A stretch of DNA of 62,695 nucleotides, from the NCBI GenBank assembly GCA_016196035.1, contig JACPYM010000075.1:1-62695 (forward strand), in the 5' to 3' direction. Each line of letters begins with the position of its first letter. Position 1 is the stretch's first letter. Made by a program: the position numbers and the translations under genes. Under the pieces are notes generated by a model that had not been told where the DNA came from, made no database searches, and saw only the letters and a list, made by a program, of their open reading frames with translations. This DNA is from Acidobacteriota bacterium. GTDB taxonomy: Bacteria; Acidobacteriota; Blastocatellia; RBC074. Shown here piece by piece: positions 14,688 to 62,000 of this stretch.

Positions 14688-15752
14688 ATGAATTACCGAA
14701 TCACCGTGCTCCCTGGCGACGGCATCGGCGTGGAAGTCGCGCACGAAGCAGTCGAACTGCTCAAAACCGTCGCTCAAACCTTCGGGCAGGAATTTGAATT
14801 TCAAACGCGCCTGATCGGCGGCGCAGCGCTCGATGCCGTGGGCGTGCCCTTGCCCGACGAGACGTTGCGCGATTGCCAGGCCAGCGATGCCGTATTGCTC
14901 GGCGCCGTCGGTGGCCCGCAATACGACAACAATCCGCCCAAGCTGAAACCGGAAACGGGCTTGCTGGCATTGCGCAATGGCTTGGGCGTCTTCGCCAATC
15001 TGCGACCCGCGTTGTTGCACGATCCGTTGATTGACGCTTCGCCGCTGAAACCGGAAATCGTGCGCGGCACCGATATGATCATCGTGCGTGAATTGCTGGG
15101 CGGCGCGTATTTCGGCCAACCGCGCGGCGTGGATGACGAACGTGGCTGGAACACGATGGCGTACACCGCGCCCGAAGTTGAACGCATTGCGCGCGTGGCA
15201 TTCGAGTTGGCACGTGGACGCAAAAAGAAGCTGCATTCGATTGACAAGGCCAACGTGCTGGAAAGCTCACAACTCTGGCGCAAGGTCGTCATTCGCGTGG
15301 CGCAGGATTATCCCGATGTCACACTCGAACACGGCTACGTGGATTCGTGCGCGATGGCGCTGGTGATGCGCCCAACAGCGTATGACGTGATCGTGACCGA
15401 GAACCTGTTCGGCGACATCTTGAGCGATGAAGCCTCCGTTTTGACCGGCAGTTTGGGTATGTTGCCTTCCGCCAGCATCGGCGGCAAAGTCGGGCTGTAC
15501 GAACCCGTGCATGGCAGCGCGCCCGACATTGCGGGCAAAGGCATCGCCAATCCGTTGGGGATGATTGCCTCGATTGCGCTGATGTTGCGTTACAGCTTCA
15601 AACTCGAAGCCGCCGCCGCTGCCGTTGAAAAAGCCATCAGTGACACGCTGGCCGAAGGCTACGGCACACCGGATTTGAAGAGTCAGGCCAAGCAGATCAA
15701 GACGAGTGAAATGGGCGCGCTCATTCGCCAAAAGGTCGCGGCGGCCAACTAA
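14688..15752 (+). CDS. leuB: 3-isopropylmalate dehydrogenase
   Basis: 354 residues of the isocitrate/isopropylmalate dehydrogenase family. Visible are [10 protein letters not shown] at the N-terminus, [15 protein letters not shown] typical of LeuB rather than Icd, the catalytic lysine region DKANVL, the metal aspartates in [12 protein letters not shown], and the NAD-binding region [18 protein letters not shown]. It completes the leu gene set. A simple terminator follows directly. Confidence 0.93.
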
Positions 15753-15759
15753 GCCAACC

Positions 15760-15786
15760 AAAGGACAGGTGAAATGCCTGTCCTTT
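15760..15786 (+). terminator. Rho-independent terminator after leuB
   Basis: AAAGGACAGG (15760-15769) pairs with CCTGTCCTTT (15777-15786) over 10 bp with a 7-nt loop. The T-run is short, but the position directly after the leuB stop supports the call. The leu unit therefore ends before the ilv promoter. Confidence 0.7.
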
Positions 15787-15839
15787 GTTGTCTCTGAACG
15801 GACATAACGGATATTTATCATTTGGCAGAGATTATTTAC

Positions 15840-15868
15840 TAGACTGAATCTAGCGTGCTGACTATAAT
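15840..15868 (+). promoter_or_regulatory. ilv operon promoter
   Basis: TAGACT (15840-15845), a 17-bp spacer and a perfect TATAAT (15863-15868). Transcription from about 15875 would give a leader that includes the peptide at 15928 and the terminator at 16109-16144. Confidence 0.65.
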
Positions 15869-15927
15869 GCGCCTGCTTTTTCAAGCATTCGCACTTATAT
15901 CAACCCAATTCGCCGAGAGTTTCAGTT

Positions 15928-16083
15928 ATGTCTGATCGCCTTCAATCAAACACGTTGCTTAGCCCGGTCGGCACTGATGTGCGACTTCGCGGCCTGAACG
16001 CGCTGGTTGTCGCGATTATTAACATTATCGTAGTAGGGGGCGTACTACTCGTACGCGTACCACTCGTCGGCTGGGCCGCCTGA
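15928..16083 (+). CDS. Branched-chain amino acid leader peptide (ilv attenuator)
   Basis: A 51-residue peptide. Its first 25 residues are ordinary; residues 26-47 contain 16 Ile, Val or Leu out of 22 (for example [11 protein letters not shown], then VLLVRVPLV). That is far more than chance and matches the three products of the pathway encoded downstream. It sits between a good promoter and a strong terminator, ahead of ilvB. By analogy with the IvbL and IlvL leaders, its function is the act of translation: the ribosome stalls when any of the three charged tRNAs is scarce. No strong ribosome binding site is visible, only GAGAG at 15914-15918. Confidence 0.85.
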
Positions 16084-16144
16084 AACACAGGCAATCAAGA
16101 TGCACAGCAACCCCGGCGAGCCAAACGACTCGCCGGGGTTTTTT
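16063..16144 (+). promoter_or_regulatory. Transcription attenuator: antiterminator and terminator
   Basis: Terminator: AACCCCGGCGAG (16109-16120) pairs with CTCGCCGGGGTT (16129-16140), a perfect 12-bp stem with an 8-nt loop, ending in T6 (16139-16144). Antiterminator: CTCGTCGG (16063-16070) can pair with CCGGCGAG (16113-16120), with one G-U pair, and would block the terminator. The first strand covers codons Leu46-Gly48 of the leader peptide, so a ribosome at the stop (16081-16083) would mask it and permit termination. A ribosome stalled earlier in the Ile/Val/Leu run would expose it and permit read-through to ilvB. Confidence 0.85.
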
Positions 16145-16219: not shown

Positions 16220-17923
16220 ATGAAAATGCGTGGCGCACAAATTCTGCTTGAATCGTTGCGATGCGAAAACGTGAAGCATGTGTTCGGCTATCCGGGCGGC
16301 GCAGTGCTGCACATCTATGACGAACTCAACAAGCACGAGCAGGAACTCGGCATCAAACATTATCTGGTACGGCACGAACAGGGCGCGTTGTTTGCCGCCG
16401 CCGGTTACGCCCAAGCGACTGGCCAGGTAGGCGTAGCGCTCGTCACTTCCGGCCCTGGCGGCACCAATGCCGTCACGGGCATCGCCAATGCGTTCATGGA
16501 TTCGATCCCAATGGTTGTTTTCACTGGCCAAGTGCCGACGCATTTGATCGGCAACGACGCTTTTCAGGAAGCCGATTTGACGGGCATCACGCGTTCATGC
16601 ACGAAGCACAATTACCTGGTCAAAAAAGTCGAAGACCTGGCGCCGACGATCAAAGAGGCCTTTCACGTTGCGGCCAACGGGCGGCCCGGCCCGGTACTGA
16701 TTGACATGCCCAAGGACATGACCGCGCAAGAGATCGAGTTCAGCTACCCCGAAACGATTCAACTGCGCAGCTACAACCCGCAAGTTCAACCCAGTCAAAA
16801 ACAAGTCCGCAAAGCTGTCGAAGCCATGCTCAAAGCCGAACGCCCGGTGCTGTATCTGGGTGGCGGCGCAGTTGCGGCAGGTGCGTATGAAGAAGTACGC
16901 CGGTTGGCTGAACGGCTGAACCTACCGACGACCTGCACGCTGATGGGCCTAGGCGCGTTCCCGGCCAGCCATCCACTGAGTTTGGGGATGCTGGGCATGC
17001 ACGGTGGTTACTGGACGAACATGGCCGTGAACAATTGTGATCTGTTGATCTCGATTGGCGCGCGTTTCGACGACCGTGTGACCGGCAAGATTAGCGAGTT
17101 CGCCAGCGGTGCCAAGTTCATCCACGTAGACATTGACCCATCCTGCATCAGCAAGAATGTGCCTTGTGATTATCCGGTCGTAGGCGATGCCCGCGCCGCG
17201 ACTAAAGCCTTCCTGGCCGAGGTCGAAGAGCAATTGGCAGGTGGCGCAAAACTGGCCTCGAAGGATTCCTGGCACGCCCAGATCGCCGCATGGCGCAAAC
17301 AACATCCATTCTGGTTCAAAGAAGAAGGTGATGTCATCAAGCCGCAATTTGTCATCCACGAATTGCATCGCATCACCAAGGGCCAAGCCATCGTCTCTTC
17401 TGACGTGGGCCAGCACCAGATGTGGACGGCGCAACTTTACGGCTTCGATTCGCCGCGTCAGTGGCTGAATTCCGGCGGCTTGGGCGCGATGGGTTATGGC
17501 TTCCCCTCGGCAATGGGCCCGGCGGTGGCTTACCCCGACAAACTTTGTGTCGCGGTCGTGGGCGATGGCGGCTTCCAGATGTCTATGAACGAATTGGCGA
17601 CGGTCAAGCAGTACAACATCCCGGTCAAGATTCTGATCATCAATAATGGCTATTTGGGTATGGTGCGCCAGTGGCAAGAGCAGTTCTATGAACACCGCTA
17701 TGCGCACGTCAATCTGGAAGTCTCGCCCGATTTCGTCAAACTGGCCGAAGCTTATGGCGTGCCCGCTCTGCGCGCGACCAAGGCCAGCGAGGTCGCTCAT
17801 ACACTCGAAAAAGGCTTGAACATCCCCGGCCCGGTGTTGATCGAGATGAAGGTGGCGCGCGAGGAAAACGTGTTTCCGATTGTGCCGGCAGGCGCGGCGT
17901 TGAAGGACATGATCTTAGCTTAA
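16220..17923 (+). CDS. ilvB: Acetolactate synthase, catalytic subunit
   Basis: 567 residues, the usual three-domain thiamin-diphosphate enzyme. The catalytic glutamate region [21 protein letters not shown]-associated [14 protein letters not shown], and the TPP/Mg motif [12 protein letters not shown] to INN are all present. It makes acetolactate and acetohydroxybutyrate for valine/leucine and isoleucine. It is the first enzyme gene after the attenuator and is followed by ilvN. Confidence 0.95.
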
Positions 17924-17972: not shown

Positions 17973-18527
17973 ATGACTATGCGACATACAATTTCTATTC
18001 TGCTTGAAAATGAATACGGCATGCTCTCGCGCGTGGCTGGTCTCTTCAGTGCACGCGGCTACCAGATTGACACGCTCAGTGTCGCCCCGACGTTGGAGGA
18101 TGGGGTCTCGCGCTTGACGCTGACGACGCACGGCAACGACCACGTCATCGAACAGATCGTCGAACAGACGCGCAAGATGGTGCGCATCCTCGATGTCGTA
18201 GACATGACCGCCAACCCGCACGTCGAACGCGAGATGGTCATGCTCACGGTCAGCGCGCATCAGGGCGAAGAACGGCAAGAAGTCTTAAGCCTCGTCGAAA
18301 TCTTCCGCGCCCGCGTGGTGGATGTCTCGAACGATACGTTTATCGTCGAGTTGACCGGCAATGCCGAAAAGGTCAACGCCTTTATTGAACTGCTGCGGCC
18401 CATCGGCGTTCACGACATGGTCCGCACCGGCACCGTCGCGCTGACGCGCGTCGCCTACATCAAAGCGCAAAAACTGAAAGACGATGACGAAGAGTTTTCG
18501 GAATTGTCGCTGAACGAAAAAGTCTAA
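17973..18527 (+). CDS. ilvN: Acetolactate synthase, regulatory subunit
   Basis: 184 residues with an N-terminal ACT domain ([31 protein letters not shown]) and the C-terminal ALS_ss domain (about 85-170) ending in GTVALTR. It gives valine feedback control and activates IlvB. It lies 49 bp after ilvB; a repeat then separates it from ilvC. Confidence 0.94.
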
Positions 18528-18687: not shown

Positions 18688-19704
18688 ATGAACATTTATT
18701 ACGACAAAGACGCTGACCCGAACGCCCTCAAAGGCAAACGCATCGCCATCATCGGCTACGGCTCGCAAGGCTTCGGGCACTCAAACAATCTGAAAGATAG
18801 CGGCGCGGATGTGATCGTTGGCTTACGCGCGGACAGCCCCTCGGTGGCGAAAGCCCAAAGCGCGGGCCTTGAAGTCCTGCCTGTCGCCGATGCCGCCGAA
18901 CGCGCGGACATCATCATGCTGCTCACGCCCGACGAATTGACGCCCGGCATTTATAAACGCGACATCGAACCGCATTTGAAAGCGGGCAAGTACCTGGCTG
19001 TCGCGCACGGTTTCTCGATTCACTTCAAAAAGATTGTGCCGCCCGCTGACGTCAATGTCTTCATGGTTGCGCCCAAAGGCCCCGGCCACCTGGTGCGGCG
19101 CGAATATGAAAAGGGCGGCGGCGTACCTTGTTTGATCGCGGTTGCCCAGGACCCCAGTGGCGATTCCAAGCAGGTGGCGCTCGCGTATGCCAGTGCCATC
19201 GGCGGCGCGCGCGCGGGCGTGATCGAAACGACCTTCAAAGAAGAAACTGAAACTGATCTGTTTGGCGAACAGTCCGTGCTGTGCGGCGGCGTGACGGCGT
19301 TGATTCAAGCCGGTTTTGAAACGCTGGTTGAAGCGGGCTACGCGCCCGAAATGGCCTATTTTGAATGCCTGCACGAGATGAAGCTGATCGTTGACCTGAT
19401 GTATGAAGGCGGCATTTCGACGATGCGCTATTCGATCTCGAACACGGCTGAATACGGCGATCTGACGCGCGGCAAACGCGTCATTGGCCCGGAAGTCAAA
19501 GAGCGCATGAAGGAAATTCTCGGCGAGATTCAATCCGGCCAATTCGCTGACGAATGGATGGCTGAGGCCGAATCCGGCAAGCCCAATTTCACGCGGCTGG
19601 TCGAAGCTGAGAAGAAACACCAGATCGAAGACGTTGGCGCCAAGCTGCGCGGTTTAATGCCGTGGCTGGCGTCGAACAAGATCGTAGACAAAGCCAAGAA
19701 CTGA
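18688..19704 (+). CDS. ilvC: Ketol-acid reductoisomerase, class I (short form)
   Basis: 338 residues, the short bacterial class. The Rossmann motif [17 protein letters not shown], the [14 protein letters not shown] strand, and metal-binding acidic residues in [13 protein letters not shown] and [14 protein letters not shown] are complete. It converts acetolactate to dihydroxyisovalerate, and acetohydroxybutyrate likewise. AAGGAG precedes the ATG directly after the repeat. Confidence 0.95.
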
Positions 19705-32786: not shown

Positions 32787-33434
32787 TTACCTGGCCTGCG
32801 CTTTGGTTTTGAGTTCGCGCAACCGCGTTTGCTGTTCCGGCGTGAGTTTGTTTTTGAGCCGAATGAGCAAGACCATTTGGGTGCGTTTGATGTCTTGCTC
32901 AAGGCCGAGCACTTTATCCAACTGCGCGATGATCGTCTGTTCGCTCATCTGATCGGCTTTGAGCAACGCCGCAATCTTTTCGACGCCGTCCTCCAGCTTC
33001 CATTGCAACTCGGTCAGCACGGTTTGTGTTTTACGGACTTCGGCTTTGATGTAACTCTTCTGCTCTTCACTCAAGCCGAGTGCTTGCTGATTCTGCATAA
33101 TCAATTCCGGCGGGAACAGGTTTTCAGAAAGGTCGGTATCTTCTGCCCGCGCAACCGGCACAGCCAGTAATAGCAACATGCATACAAGCAGCGTTGTTGT
33201 CCTTACTGGCGCATTCGAACGTTGCTCCGCTGCCCTGAAAGGGCGCAATTTAATAGCCGGGGGCAACGCCCCCGGAATAGCGCCGATACATTCGGCCCTG
33301 AAGGGGCCGCATTTGATGTTGAATGCGGCCCCTTCAGGGCCGTGGTTCACCGCGCCGCCACCGGGGGCGTTGCCCCCGGCTATTAAATTGCGCCCTTTCA
33401 GGGCGTTAACTGAATTTCGCAAAGGGGTACTCAT
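32787..33434 (-). CDS. Spy/CpxP-like periplasmic protein with repeat in its leader
   Basis: 215 residues as read. The mature part (from about 97) is helical: LGLSEEQKSYIKAEVRKTQ, then a coiled region and LTPEQQTRLRELKTKAQ, matching Spy/CpxP-like or heavy-metal-sensor proteins with LTxxQ-type motifs. The start ATG overlaps the upstream stop (ATGA) and has GGAGGAG. Residues about 10-73 are translated from a palindromic repeat. Without them the protein would begin MSTPLRNS, then APVRTTTLLVCMLLLLAVPVARA, a normal signal peptide. Confidence 0.7.
   Translation of the reverse strand: MSTPLRNSVNALKGRNLIAGGNAPGGGAVNHGPEGAAFNIKCGPFRAECIGAIPGALPPAIKLRPFRAAEQRSNAPVRTTTLLVCMLLLLAVPVARAEDTDLSENLFPPELIMQNQQALGLSEEQKSYIKAEVRKTQTVLTELQWKLEDGVEKIAALLKADQMSEQTIIAQLDKVLGLEQDIKRTQMVLLIRLKNKLTPEQQTRLRELKTKAQAR
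33232..33404. repeat. Nested perfect palindrome, 44-bp outer arms
   Basis: Outer arms 33232-33275 and 33361-33404 are perfectly complementary (44 bp, containing GGGGGCAACGCCCCCGG). An inner pair, 33294-33313 and 33322-33341, is perfect over 20 bp around an 8-nt loop. It lies wholly inside the open frame of the Spy-like gene, near its 5' end. Confidence 0.95.
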
Positions 33435-59026: not shown

Positions 59027-62000
59027 TCATTTGTTTGGGTTAGGCCTGGTTGGCGTAAAGAGCTTGCTCGCCTCTTGAGGACTTAAATTACACACCGTGC
59101 AATGAAATGGATTTCTTGCACTTCTCATGCTCGGGAATATTGCTCCACCAGCAGCTCTTATCTCTCTTGCTGTTGTTACGCCTATTTGCCCGTTACGGAC
59201 GGTTTGTGAAAGTTCCGCGACAGACACTCCAGCCTCACTTGTAACTGACACTCCGTGCAACTGGTTGGCGGCATCGACAAAAACTTTGCTACCATTGATG
59301 AAATTTTCTGGGAGATTGAGTCCTCCGCGCACTACCAACGCTTCATCAGGTATGACAGATCCCAACCCCCTAGCTAAAGCTGCCATCTCTGCTTCAAGCA
59401 CCAACTCAATATCAGCTTCCATTACCGCCGCCGTTTCCTCAGCCGCGATCGGAGGTCCTCCAAACCCGTAAGTCGCCATTGTTACTGACATCTGAAAGCC
59501 TGGGTCATGGATACCTTCTTGAAAATTTCTGTATGTTTCAGAGTTATCCATCAGGAATTGACGCGCACGTGCCCCGGTAACGAGAGAGCCTGCGACTGGC
59601 ACCGCAAGAGGGGCGCTCAACCCAAAGACTTTTGAAAAGAACCGGCCAACTTTCCCTAAGAATCCGCCTTTTTCTTTTGTTTCAATCACAGCTACAGTTT
59701 TACGGGGATCATAATCATCATCCTTCTTCGGGTCTTGCGCCAAATGGCCGGATGGGTCGACATATTTCAGTGGGTTGTTCCTGACGTATGTGTAGAGATT
59801 GAGTGTCTGTGGGCTAATGGCTTTTCCCTGAAAGCTATCGGGGCTTGTGAATCTTCCTTGCACATTTGAGAAGTAACGCGCCTGAAAATAATCCAGCCCT
59901 GTCTCCCCATCCCGCTCCTTCCCCGTAAACTTCTGCCGCACCCCATCCGCCAAATATCCATTGTTCGCCAGCCGATGCGGCGTCTGCAATGCCACCAACT
60001 CTTCTCCGAACGGCAAATAATCATGCCGCCGCACATCCGCCAGCGTCCCTGCCAGCCCCACATTCATGCGCGGCGTCCCCAAATGATCCGCCACCAGCCA
60101 GCGCACCTCCGCGTTGTTCGTCCCTGGCGCATTCCCCGTCAACGTCACGTTGTCCAGCAACACCGTCGTATCGCTTTCCTTCTCATTGCGCGCCACAAAG
60201 CGCACTGTCCCGCTGCCGGTCGGCACGGTGAACGCGGGCGTCGTCAGATTGACATAACTGGCCGCCGAGACTTCGTAAACGCCCAGCGATAAGTTGTCAA
60301 AGAACACTTCGAATTGCGCCGTCGTGGGCGGCGCACTGCGCCTGTCTGCCCACCCTTGCGCCGCCTGGAAGCTGAGTTGATAACTGCGCGTCGCATCGAA
60401 GCCATTGAGCTTTTGTTCAATCAAAGACTCGCCGCCACCTTGCAGGAACGCGGCCTGCCCGCCTTCGGGCGCGGCGCTGTTGCCGCTGTTCAAGGGGCTG
60501 CCATTGCCGCTGACGCCCGCCGTGCCGGTGAATGTCCACTCCGCATTGGCCGGGTTCATCTGATAATTGCCCGCGCCAACCGTGGGCGTTTCAAAGCCGC
60601 CGTTGGGCGCGGCCAGATTGATCGTACTGCCCGCGCCGCTGGCGTTCGAGCCGGTGACAATGATCTTGCGCGCGCCCGCGCTGAAACCATATTCAGTGCC
60701 GGGCGCGGCGGGCAAGGCTTCGTTCGGATATTCGGCCACCAACTCGCCGTCAAACCCGTAGGCATACAGTGTCCAGCGCGGATTCGCCGCAAAGACGTTG
60801 GGCCGGAAGCGCGTCCGGTGCCCATCGGCGTCATACACGTACTGGCCGCCCGCCGTCCCCTGGCTGGCGATGCCCGTCGCTATGAGCAAGCGATTCTCGG
60901 CGTCGTAAGTGCCGCCACCCGCACCCGTTGGGTCGTAAGTCGCATTGCCCGCCGCATCGTATTGGAAAGCATAGCCCGCGCAATTGGTGAAGCGATTATT
61001 CGTCGTGCTTGCGACACAGGGGAATTTGTTGATGCCCACCGGATTGGTTCCGCCCGGCGGTTGCCAAATCGAGGTCAGGTTTTGGTCAATCGAACGGTTG
61101 CCCCAACGGTCGTAATTGAATTTCTGCGTGTAAACGTCAACGTAGTTCGAGAAAACATACTGCCGGCCTTCGACCCGATCAATCCGGTTTAATTGGTCGT
61201 AAAAATACCGGTCGTGCTGTGCGACTTTGTAATTGCTGGCGTAGTTGTTCTCGTCAAACGGCGTCCAATGCTGCATCACGGTGACATTGCCGTTATTGTC
61301 CGTGCCTTGATCAGAAAGGTTCGGCGCTGATTGCGAACGGGCAAAGTTGGTGTAATAAAAGGTCAGCTTACCCAAATTCCAGCCATCGTTATTGACCGCC
61401 TCTTTGCCCAGCACCGTGCGCGTCAATTGCAAACGTGAGTTGTAAGCCATGTGGTGATACAACCCTGTGCCGGTCGGGTTGGTGTTCGTGGTGCCGAAGT
61501 GCTCGCGCGCCATCTGCCCGCTCGCTTCATACGTGAAGCCGTCCAGATACGTGCGCAAGTTCCCGTCACCCAATGTCCCCGTGAACAGGCTGGGCCGCCC
61601 CGCATTGTCGTAAGCGTAATTGACCGTGCGCCCGGATGGATAGGTCTGCGCGGTCACCGCACCCGCCAGATTGTAGGCGCGCGACATCGTGTAGGCGGGC
61701 CGCCAATTATTGCTGATCTTGAAGCGCTGCTCTTTGGTCAGCGGGCGGCCCAGCGCATCGTAGCCGGTGACGGCCATGTATTCGACGTCTTCGCCGGTGG
61801 TTTCGGTGCCGTTGGCATAGCTCTTCCACAACCGCCCGATGCCGTACTTGCCCGCCGCTTGGTTGTCATAAATGCGCGTGATGTCCGGCGTGATTGCGGT
61901 GTTGGAGTAATCCACCGTCGTATTCCGATTGAGCGCGTCGTAGCCGTAAATCAGTTCGATGTTACGCGCATCTTTCTTGCTAACCAGGTTGCCGTTTGCG

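Follow-up and report, generated by a model that had tools for sequence, protein, structure and literature searches.

The ilvL, ivbL, thrL and pheL leaders of Escherichia coli represent the proteobacterial attenuators of ilv, leu, thr and phe genes, and switching in attenuators of this type is generally held to be kinetic. Related systems outside the Proteobacteria are described in several papers. Candidate ilvB leader peptides with terminators were reported from Actinobacteria, together with codon changes in Streptomyces that were without effect on regulation (PMC1262725). The ilvB uORF of Corynebacterium was demonstrated, and the ilvB-OMG motif (various phyla) and a Leptospira motif were proposed to act alike (PMC10272879). 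Mutations support the attenuation model for Corynebacterium ilvB (PMC11857589), and a leucine-rich attenuator is described for Staphylococcus (PMC5794164). For the Acidobacteriota, a 2010 paper states that almost no predicted attenuator in the phylum had an assigned function (PMC2965389), and the string "acidobacter" is absent from the accessible text of PMC11109978 and PMC8632094. No acidobacterial ilv attenuator was found in the literature on leader peptides, uORFs and attenuation, a search that reached few subscription papers and does not prove absence. The initial annotation of the locus analyzed here called such attenuators textbook in Proteobacteria, which passes over reports of ilvB leader attenuation from Actinobacteria and its proposed occurrence in further phyla. 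Its expectation that an acidobacterial example would extend the range stands for the host phylum and the breadth of occurrence, which are new here; the mechanism is ordinary, and similar ilvB leaders have already been reported beyond the Proteobacteria.

The window, i.e., the whole stretch of 62,695 nucleotides that was analyzed, is contig C75 of a 9.6-Mb genome in 139 contigs (G000). The closest named record is a Blastocatellia MAG (L031; 76% IlvB identity), which fits the initial assignment to a probable acidobacterium. Analysis of the gene order revealed leuB, a promoter, a leader ORF, an attenuator, ilvB, ilvN, ilvC, a methyltransferase gene, an aspartyl-protease gene (weak match) and an HMGL-like/LeuA_dimer gene. 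The last of these resembles, by eye, loci that NCBIfam names citramalate synthase. The elements that had been proposed to lie in the right order before ilvBN-C were all located, with ilvB, ilvN and ilvC domains downstream, as follows.

14688-15752, leuB, followed by a terminator-like site at 15759-15787
15802-15839, + strand, AT-rich element (CATAACG...TTAT...) 5' of the promoter, partly conserved in an alignment of eight family copies
15840-15868, + strand, sigma-70-like promoter (-35 TAGACT, 17 nt, -10 TATAAT), from the promoter scan, with TATANT in 8/8 family copies
15912-15920, + strand, protector, a 5' leader segment predicted by folding to pair with strand 2 in ribosome-free RNA
15928-16083, + strand, leader peptide ORF of 51 codons with stop codon TGA at 16081-16083, from the ORF list, its run kept in relatives
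16003-16068, + strand, regulatory run (codons 26 to 47), 16 of 22 residues Ile/Val/Leu as counted from the codon list
16063-16070, + strand, strand 2, the antiterminator 5' arm inside codons 46 to 48, from alignment and folding
16109-16120, + strand, strand 3, common to antiterminator and terminator, from the terminator scan and alignments
16129-16144, + strand, intrinsic terminator consisting of strand 4 (16129-16140) and the U run to 16144, from the terminator scan and alignments
16220-17923, + strand, ilvB, acetolactate synthase large subunit (domain match), the putative first gene under attenuator control
17973-18527, + strand, ilvN, small subunit (domain match)
18688-19704, + strand, ilvC, ketol-acid reductoisomerase (domain match)

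Like the proteobacterial attenuators, as these are generally described, the device has a run of codons for its own pathway's amino acids, a stop codon close to strand 2, an antiterminator and a terminator that exclude each other, and genes of the pathway downstream. It differs in phylum and in the placement of strand 2, which precedes the stop codon by 11 to 18 bases in the window family and contains a stop codon in most other copies. With the Corynebacterium ilvBNC uORF and the ilvB-II motif, as described in PMC10272879 and PMC11857589, it shares an Ile/Val/Leu leader before ilvBNC and a terminator with an antiterminator. The Corynebacterium leader has 15 residues and a start codon one base from the transcription start (PMC11857589), and it has reporter and mutational support. 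A branched-chain amino acid-rich uORF before ilvB has also been proposed for the ilvB-OMG motif (PMC10272879). The window device may overlap this motif; the device has no match in Rfam, whose models may lack the motif.

Counting from the sequence bore out both the 51-codon leader and the Ile/Val/Leu content of codons 26 to 47 claimed in the initial annotation. Five of the eight Val codons within the last 27 codons of the window leader are GTA. Over seven family leaders GTA accounts for 34 of 56 Val codons, compared to 19 of 264 (7%) in nine window genes, and its share is higher in the leader than in the ilvB gene of the same genome in 7/7 family genomes (two of these ilvB genes are partial); P values for this bias were computed without regard to the relatedness of the sequences. 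The GTA preference in the run may reflect the choice of a starvation-sensitive codon; the window device offers a reporter-ready example with a testable codon choice. Among four close relatives, only three codons of the 22-codon core vary, and every change in them is synonymous. Comparison of the whole leader gave at least as many nonsynonymous as synonymous differences in 6/6 pairs of these relatives; the core alone is clean. The part of the leader that precedes the run is not conserved between genera. Its length is approximately 13 to 25 residues in most leaders of the family, and the 30-residue leader of L008 nearly lacks it; the long nonregulatory N-terminal half noted initially is therefore not a defining feature, and a meaning for it was dropped because its length varies among relatives. 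Family leaders tend to end in ...P/Q-L-A/V-x-W/G..., in which Leu-Ala/Val is encoded by strand 2 (CTC-GYY). Judged by eye, most relatives' leaders show no clear Shine-Dalgarno sequence.

The promoter proposed earlier was found upstream of the leader and matches 10 of 12 positions. Because chance alone would give 0.8 sites of this quality per region in the scan, the weight of the promoter rests on conservation: TATANT at the promoter position and a GCT a few bases 3' of it are kept in all eight family copies. The AT-rich block upstream, aligned in eight family copies (L008 ends short of the equivalent of 15802-15839), is a possible UP element or operator.

Downstream of the run, the terminator stem comprises 12 bp (16109-16120/16129-16140), and strand 2 pairs with strand 3 over 8 bp, including one G-U pair. 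Both stems agree with the initial annotation; two residues of the T run (16139-16144) lie within the terminator stem. Strand 2 is located 11 to 18 bases 5' of the stop codon; given the presumed size of the ribosome footprint, it lies at the rear edge of a ribosome positioned there, and we assume from this size that such a ribosome covers it. Folding with ViennaRNA gave energies of -20.6 kcal/mol for the 2:3 hairpin and -24.1 kcal/mol for the terminator. In RNA without a ribosome, strand 2 pairs upstream with a probability of 0.85 to 0.87 and the terminator forms with 0.98; in the RNA not occupied by a ribosome at the stop codon, the terminator probability is 0.97. With a ribosome stalled at codons 27 to 41 and the polymerase just beyond strand 3, the 2:3 probability is 0.72 to 0.95, where free RNA was assumed to begin 14 nt past the first base of the A-site codon. 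The proposed stall geometry holds in folding for codons 27 to 41, but a ribosome halted at codon 46 or 47, where the run ends, would itself cover strand 2. Once strand 4 is present, the terminator reaches 0.97 to 0.98 at equilibrium even with strand 2 free. The switch would have to be kinetic because the terminator wins at equilibrium whether or not strand 2 is available. The partner of strand 2 in the protector was sought by eye in relatives and none was seen; this pairing is predicted in the window and is not conserved.

The window device is very probably a classical ribosome-mediated transcription attenuator that senses charged tRNA-Ile and tRNA-Val and, to a lesser degree, tRNA-Leu. The basis is the anatomy of the sequence, its conservation, compensatory changes, codon bias and the match between leader and operon amino acids. 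Translation of the leader, stalling, masking at the stop codon, termination and readthrough would proceed as follows. Transcription would start near 15875, and a ribosome would translate the leader while trailing the RNA polymerase. When Ile, Val and Leu are ample, the ribosome would reach the stop codon, its rear half would hide strand 2, strand 3 would pair with strand 4 and transcription would stop near 16144. If Ile or Val is scarce, the ribosome would stall in the run at codons that leave strand 2 free, so that strands 2 and 3 could pair ahead of the synthesis of strand 4, no terminator would form and ilvBNC would be transcribed. If no ribosome were present, the upstream leader RNA is predicted to tie up strand 2, resulting in termination.

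Eleven genomes of the window's family (G000 to G010) were searched; G003 is without a close ilvB, and the other ten were read. The device lies directly 5' of ilvB in seven of these ten, the window included (G000, G001, G004, G006, G007, G009 and G010; loci L001, L027, L008, L003, L009, L005 and L004, respectively). In G008 (L227), it is positioned one gene further up, with a methyltransferase-like gene between device and ilvB. The upstream regions read in G002 and G005 (L006 and L007), which represent one genus of the family, contain no leader before ilvB. L006 carries a short tandem repeat, GATTAGAGGTT, where relatives carry the leader. The 2:3 pairing is present in 49/49 cells of the alignment of the seven direct copies, compared to 29 to 55% in slid controls, and the 3:4 terminator stem is paired in 83/84 cells (98.8%); L004, which the detector described below missed owing to a short T run, was added to the alignments by hand. 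The conserved codon run and conserved pairing that were to be looked for in related ilvB upstream regions are thus both found in the seven direct copies. In L009, matching changes C>T, G>A and C>T occur on strands 2, 3 and 4 together. Covariation of 2:3 within the family is shallow, with one double-change pair, a value reached by 64 of 500 shuffles.

Regions 5' of ilvB in the class and the phylum were analyzed with a detector that combines an Ile/Val/Leu-rich ORF, a terminator within reach and a strand-2 score. At its loosest setting, the detector reported devices in 25/56 class regions, compared to 0/56 reverse complements and 1/280 dinucleotide shuffles; G142, an ilvB fragment at a contig end, was excluded from the reading. 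At the strictest setting, the class gave 17/56 (controls 0 and 0). Outside the class, 130 genomes have an ilvB match and 114 qualify, of which 76 were read (16 loci and 60 fetched regions) and 38 were left out; L198 and L216 have fewer than 300 bases 5' of ilvB. This sample gave 4/76 at the loosest setting (0/76 reverse complements and 1/380 shuffles) and 1/76 at the strictest (controls 0 and 0). The value of 4/76 first suggested a device limited to the class, a reading that the covariance search described below overturned. The low count directly before ilvB is explained in part by several lineages that carry the leader before ilvD, ilvN or another gene.

In most copies from other families, strand 2 incorporates a stop codon (GGA-TGA, GGA-TAA, GGA-TAG or GGG-TGA), and strand 3 follows the form of this stop (TCATCC, TTATCC, CTATCC or TCACCC); in the window family, in contrast, strand 2 precedes the stop. 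An alignment of 20 of the 27 nonfamily rows, picked after strand 2 had been seen, was designated A3. The rows dropped were L025, L119, L131, L172, L189, L190 and L199, of which L025, L119 and L199 have a weak strand 2 or none. A stop triplet occupies the strand-2 site in 20/20 copies of A3 and is the called leader's own stop in 18 (L124 and L134 differ); 14 of the 20 leaders end in Gly. Changes on both sides number 24 for 2:3 (shuffled mean, 7.7) and 34 for 3:4 (shuffled mean, 10.8), with 0/500 shuffles as high in either case, although kinship among the sequences inflates this significance and the 3:4 pairing is partly due to selection, because the loci were found through ORF and terminator. 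The covariation called for by the initial annotation is thus strong in these 20 chosen class-type copies and shallow within the window family.

A covariance model (R2) was generated from the 20 A3 copies, 19 of them from the class and all 5' of ilvB, and was used to search 297 genomes drawn from the phylum. At E <= 0.01, 49 of these genomes gave a total of 68 matches. Sixty-six were tabulated, all but G111 and G273 (the latter at a contig end), and eight of the 66 are training copies. Amino-acid synthesis genes lie downstream in 44 of the 66 and in 36 of the 58 new matches. Among the 44, 28 are of the ilv type (ilvB 9, ilvN 8, ilvD 6, ilvA 2, cimA 2 and ilvC 1), and the others precede genes for aspartokinase or homoserine dehydrogenase (11), prephenate dehydratase (3), DAHP synthase (1) and glutamate synthase (1). 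These genes were called by NCBIfam in 35 cases (L325 under the model cutoff) and by known ilvB coordinates or translations judged by eye in nine. The remaining 22 of 66 have no recognized amino-acid gene downstream, and many of the low-ranking matches are probably due to chance.

The composition of the leaders was then compared with the genes downstream, where at most three candidate frames were considered per match and the richest was kept by the same rule for both groups. The last 25 residues contain on average 5.8 Thr before thrA/hom (n = 11) and 1.6 before ilv genes (n = 28; P = 4e-6), and 5.0 versus 10.1 Ile/Val/Leu (P = 3e-4). L325, before prephenate dehydratase, has a Phe/Tyr-rich leader. 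Against a simple match of leader and operon, the leaders of L321 and L316 before prephenate dehydratase are Val rich (in L316, ilvB is next by coordinates), the leader of L300 (hom) is rich in Ile/Val/Leu and not in Thr, and the leader of L269, before ilvB, is without a run. We consider it an even proposition that in the Acidobacteriota one portable attenuator cassette controls the synthesis of Ile, Val, Leu and Thr to a large extent and that of Phe in part. In this cassette, a stop codon would lie within the antiterminator strand, in most cases that of the leader itself (Gly-stop; GGA-TGA/TAA/TAG), and only the leader codons would be exchanged before ilvB, ilvD, ilvN, ilvA, cimA, thrA, hom and sometimes glutamate synthase; the window family, with strand 2 upstream of the stop, would be a derived form. 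The covariance models link leader composition to operon across many genomes of the phylum. Attenuators in this phylum, almost none of which had an assigned function according to PMC2965389, thereby gain a possible one; the finding is also consistent with a wider distribution of leader-peptide attenuation than the best-studied hosts indicate. Among the R2 matches, L318 and L319, from two genomes, have Leu/Val-rich leaders; the next small ORF belongs to no known family by eye, and the longer ORFs that were searched gave no NCBIfam match. L285 has a Leu-rich leader and an attenuator before a small gene that is cupin-like by eye, without NCBIfam match.

A second covariance model (R1), built from the attenuator of the window family, matched in the host genome at C130:7462-7559 (31.2 bits) before a glutamate-synthase-like gene. 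The best NCBIfam match of this gene is the glutamate synthase large subunit, below cutoff (255.7 of 1,047 bits over a 1,001-residue part). R1 also matches before a glutamate-synthase-like gene in eight relatives, giving nine family genomes in all (including L270, 3-3005); by eye, the relatives' genes are of two kinds. The leaders before these genes are rich in Lys, Arg, Ala and Ser and contain at most a short Leu/Val stretch. In L339, L340 and L341 (G149, G072 and G147), coordinates and open-frame lengths place a glutamate-synthase-like gene 5' of ilvB in the same orientation, apparently next to it, and a class-type terminator (hairpin plus T run) lies before the glutamate-synthase-like gene. 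Such an arrangement would tie the gene to branched-chain synthesis. The host genome carries a further device on contig C8 (L329, minus strand), whose leader ends in FAFSFYFYFSNDRRVGGSLI, a Phe/Tyr run, before a gene with a prephenate dehydratase domain (PF00800). Its terminator lies at approximately 60832-60864, and a 10-base strand 2 lies approximately 18 to 27 bases before the end of the stop codon. With the ilv and Phe-run devices and the R1 match before the glutamate-synthase-like gene, G000 appears to carry at least two clear attenuators and perhaps three; the regions upstream of its hom and ilvD genes contain no leader with terminator. The stop-in-antiterminator cassette and the glutamate synthase copy are the parts most worth specialist attention.

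These data bear on other explanations of the locus. The leader ORF might encode a small hydrophobic membrane protein, with a terminator independent of it, because a run of Ile, Val and Leu resembles a membrane helix as well and the peptide core is invariant among the four close relatives. This would leave without explanation the fact that cassettes of the same type have leaders rich in Thr in front of thrA/hom and one with a Phe/Tyr run in front of a prephenate dehydratase gene, and that strand 2, inside the ORF, covaries with strand 3. The biased GTA usage and the variation of the N-terminal part between genera also argue against such a protein, which we regard as very unlikely. Slightly less probable still is control of the terminator by a riboswitch, a T-box or a protein, with an incidental ORF. 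T-boxes do control ilv genes elsewhere, and ppGpp riboswitches do so according to PMC10272879. A search of Rfam release 15 (T-box, riboswitches and described leaders) revealed no family at the gathering score in the window region or in 17 other loci, and the conserved bases at the device are mostly leader codons and the three strands.

The least credible alternative, to which we give almost no weight, is a constitutive terminator next to a chance ORF. Single-site promoter and terminator scans do give chance matches, but the combined detector separated real regions of the class from reverse complements and shuffles, and the device is conserved in the family. The reading as an ilv attenuator given in the initial annotation is supported by the conserved run, the alternative pairing, the promoter, the position and the match of leader and operon amino acids elsewhere.

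A simpler scan, which required 8 or more Ile/Val/Leu among 14 residues of an ORF and a nearby terminator but no strand 2, was applied to 78 of 80 named loci; of the other two, L031 was read with the family and L073 is without upstream sequence. The scan returned 18 ORFs, many of them plainly pieces of ordinary proteins, and gave no support for the same device in these loci. The sole ORF with a nearby terminator (L044) was rejected, as it looks like the tail of a normal gene. In L043, L049, L051, L072, L086 and L102, with record titles Ignavibacteriae, Balneolales, Aliifodinibius, Balneolaceae, Sphaerobacter and Rhodothermus, respectively, ORFs with an Ile/Val/Leu run end 150 to 330 bases 5' of ilvB, and the scan found no terminator there. 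Elsewhere in the window, two matches to the Acido-Lenti-1 RNA were observed on opposite strands, at 33361-33405 (+) and 33231-33275 (-), approximately 85 bases apart.
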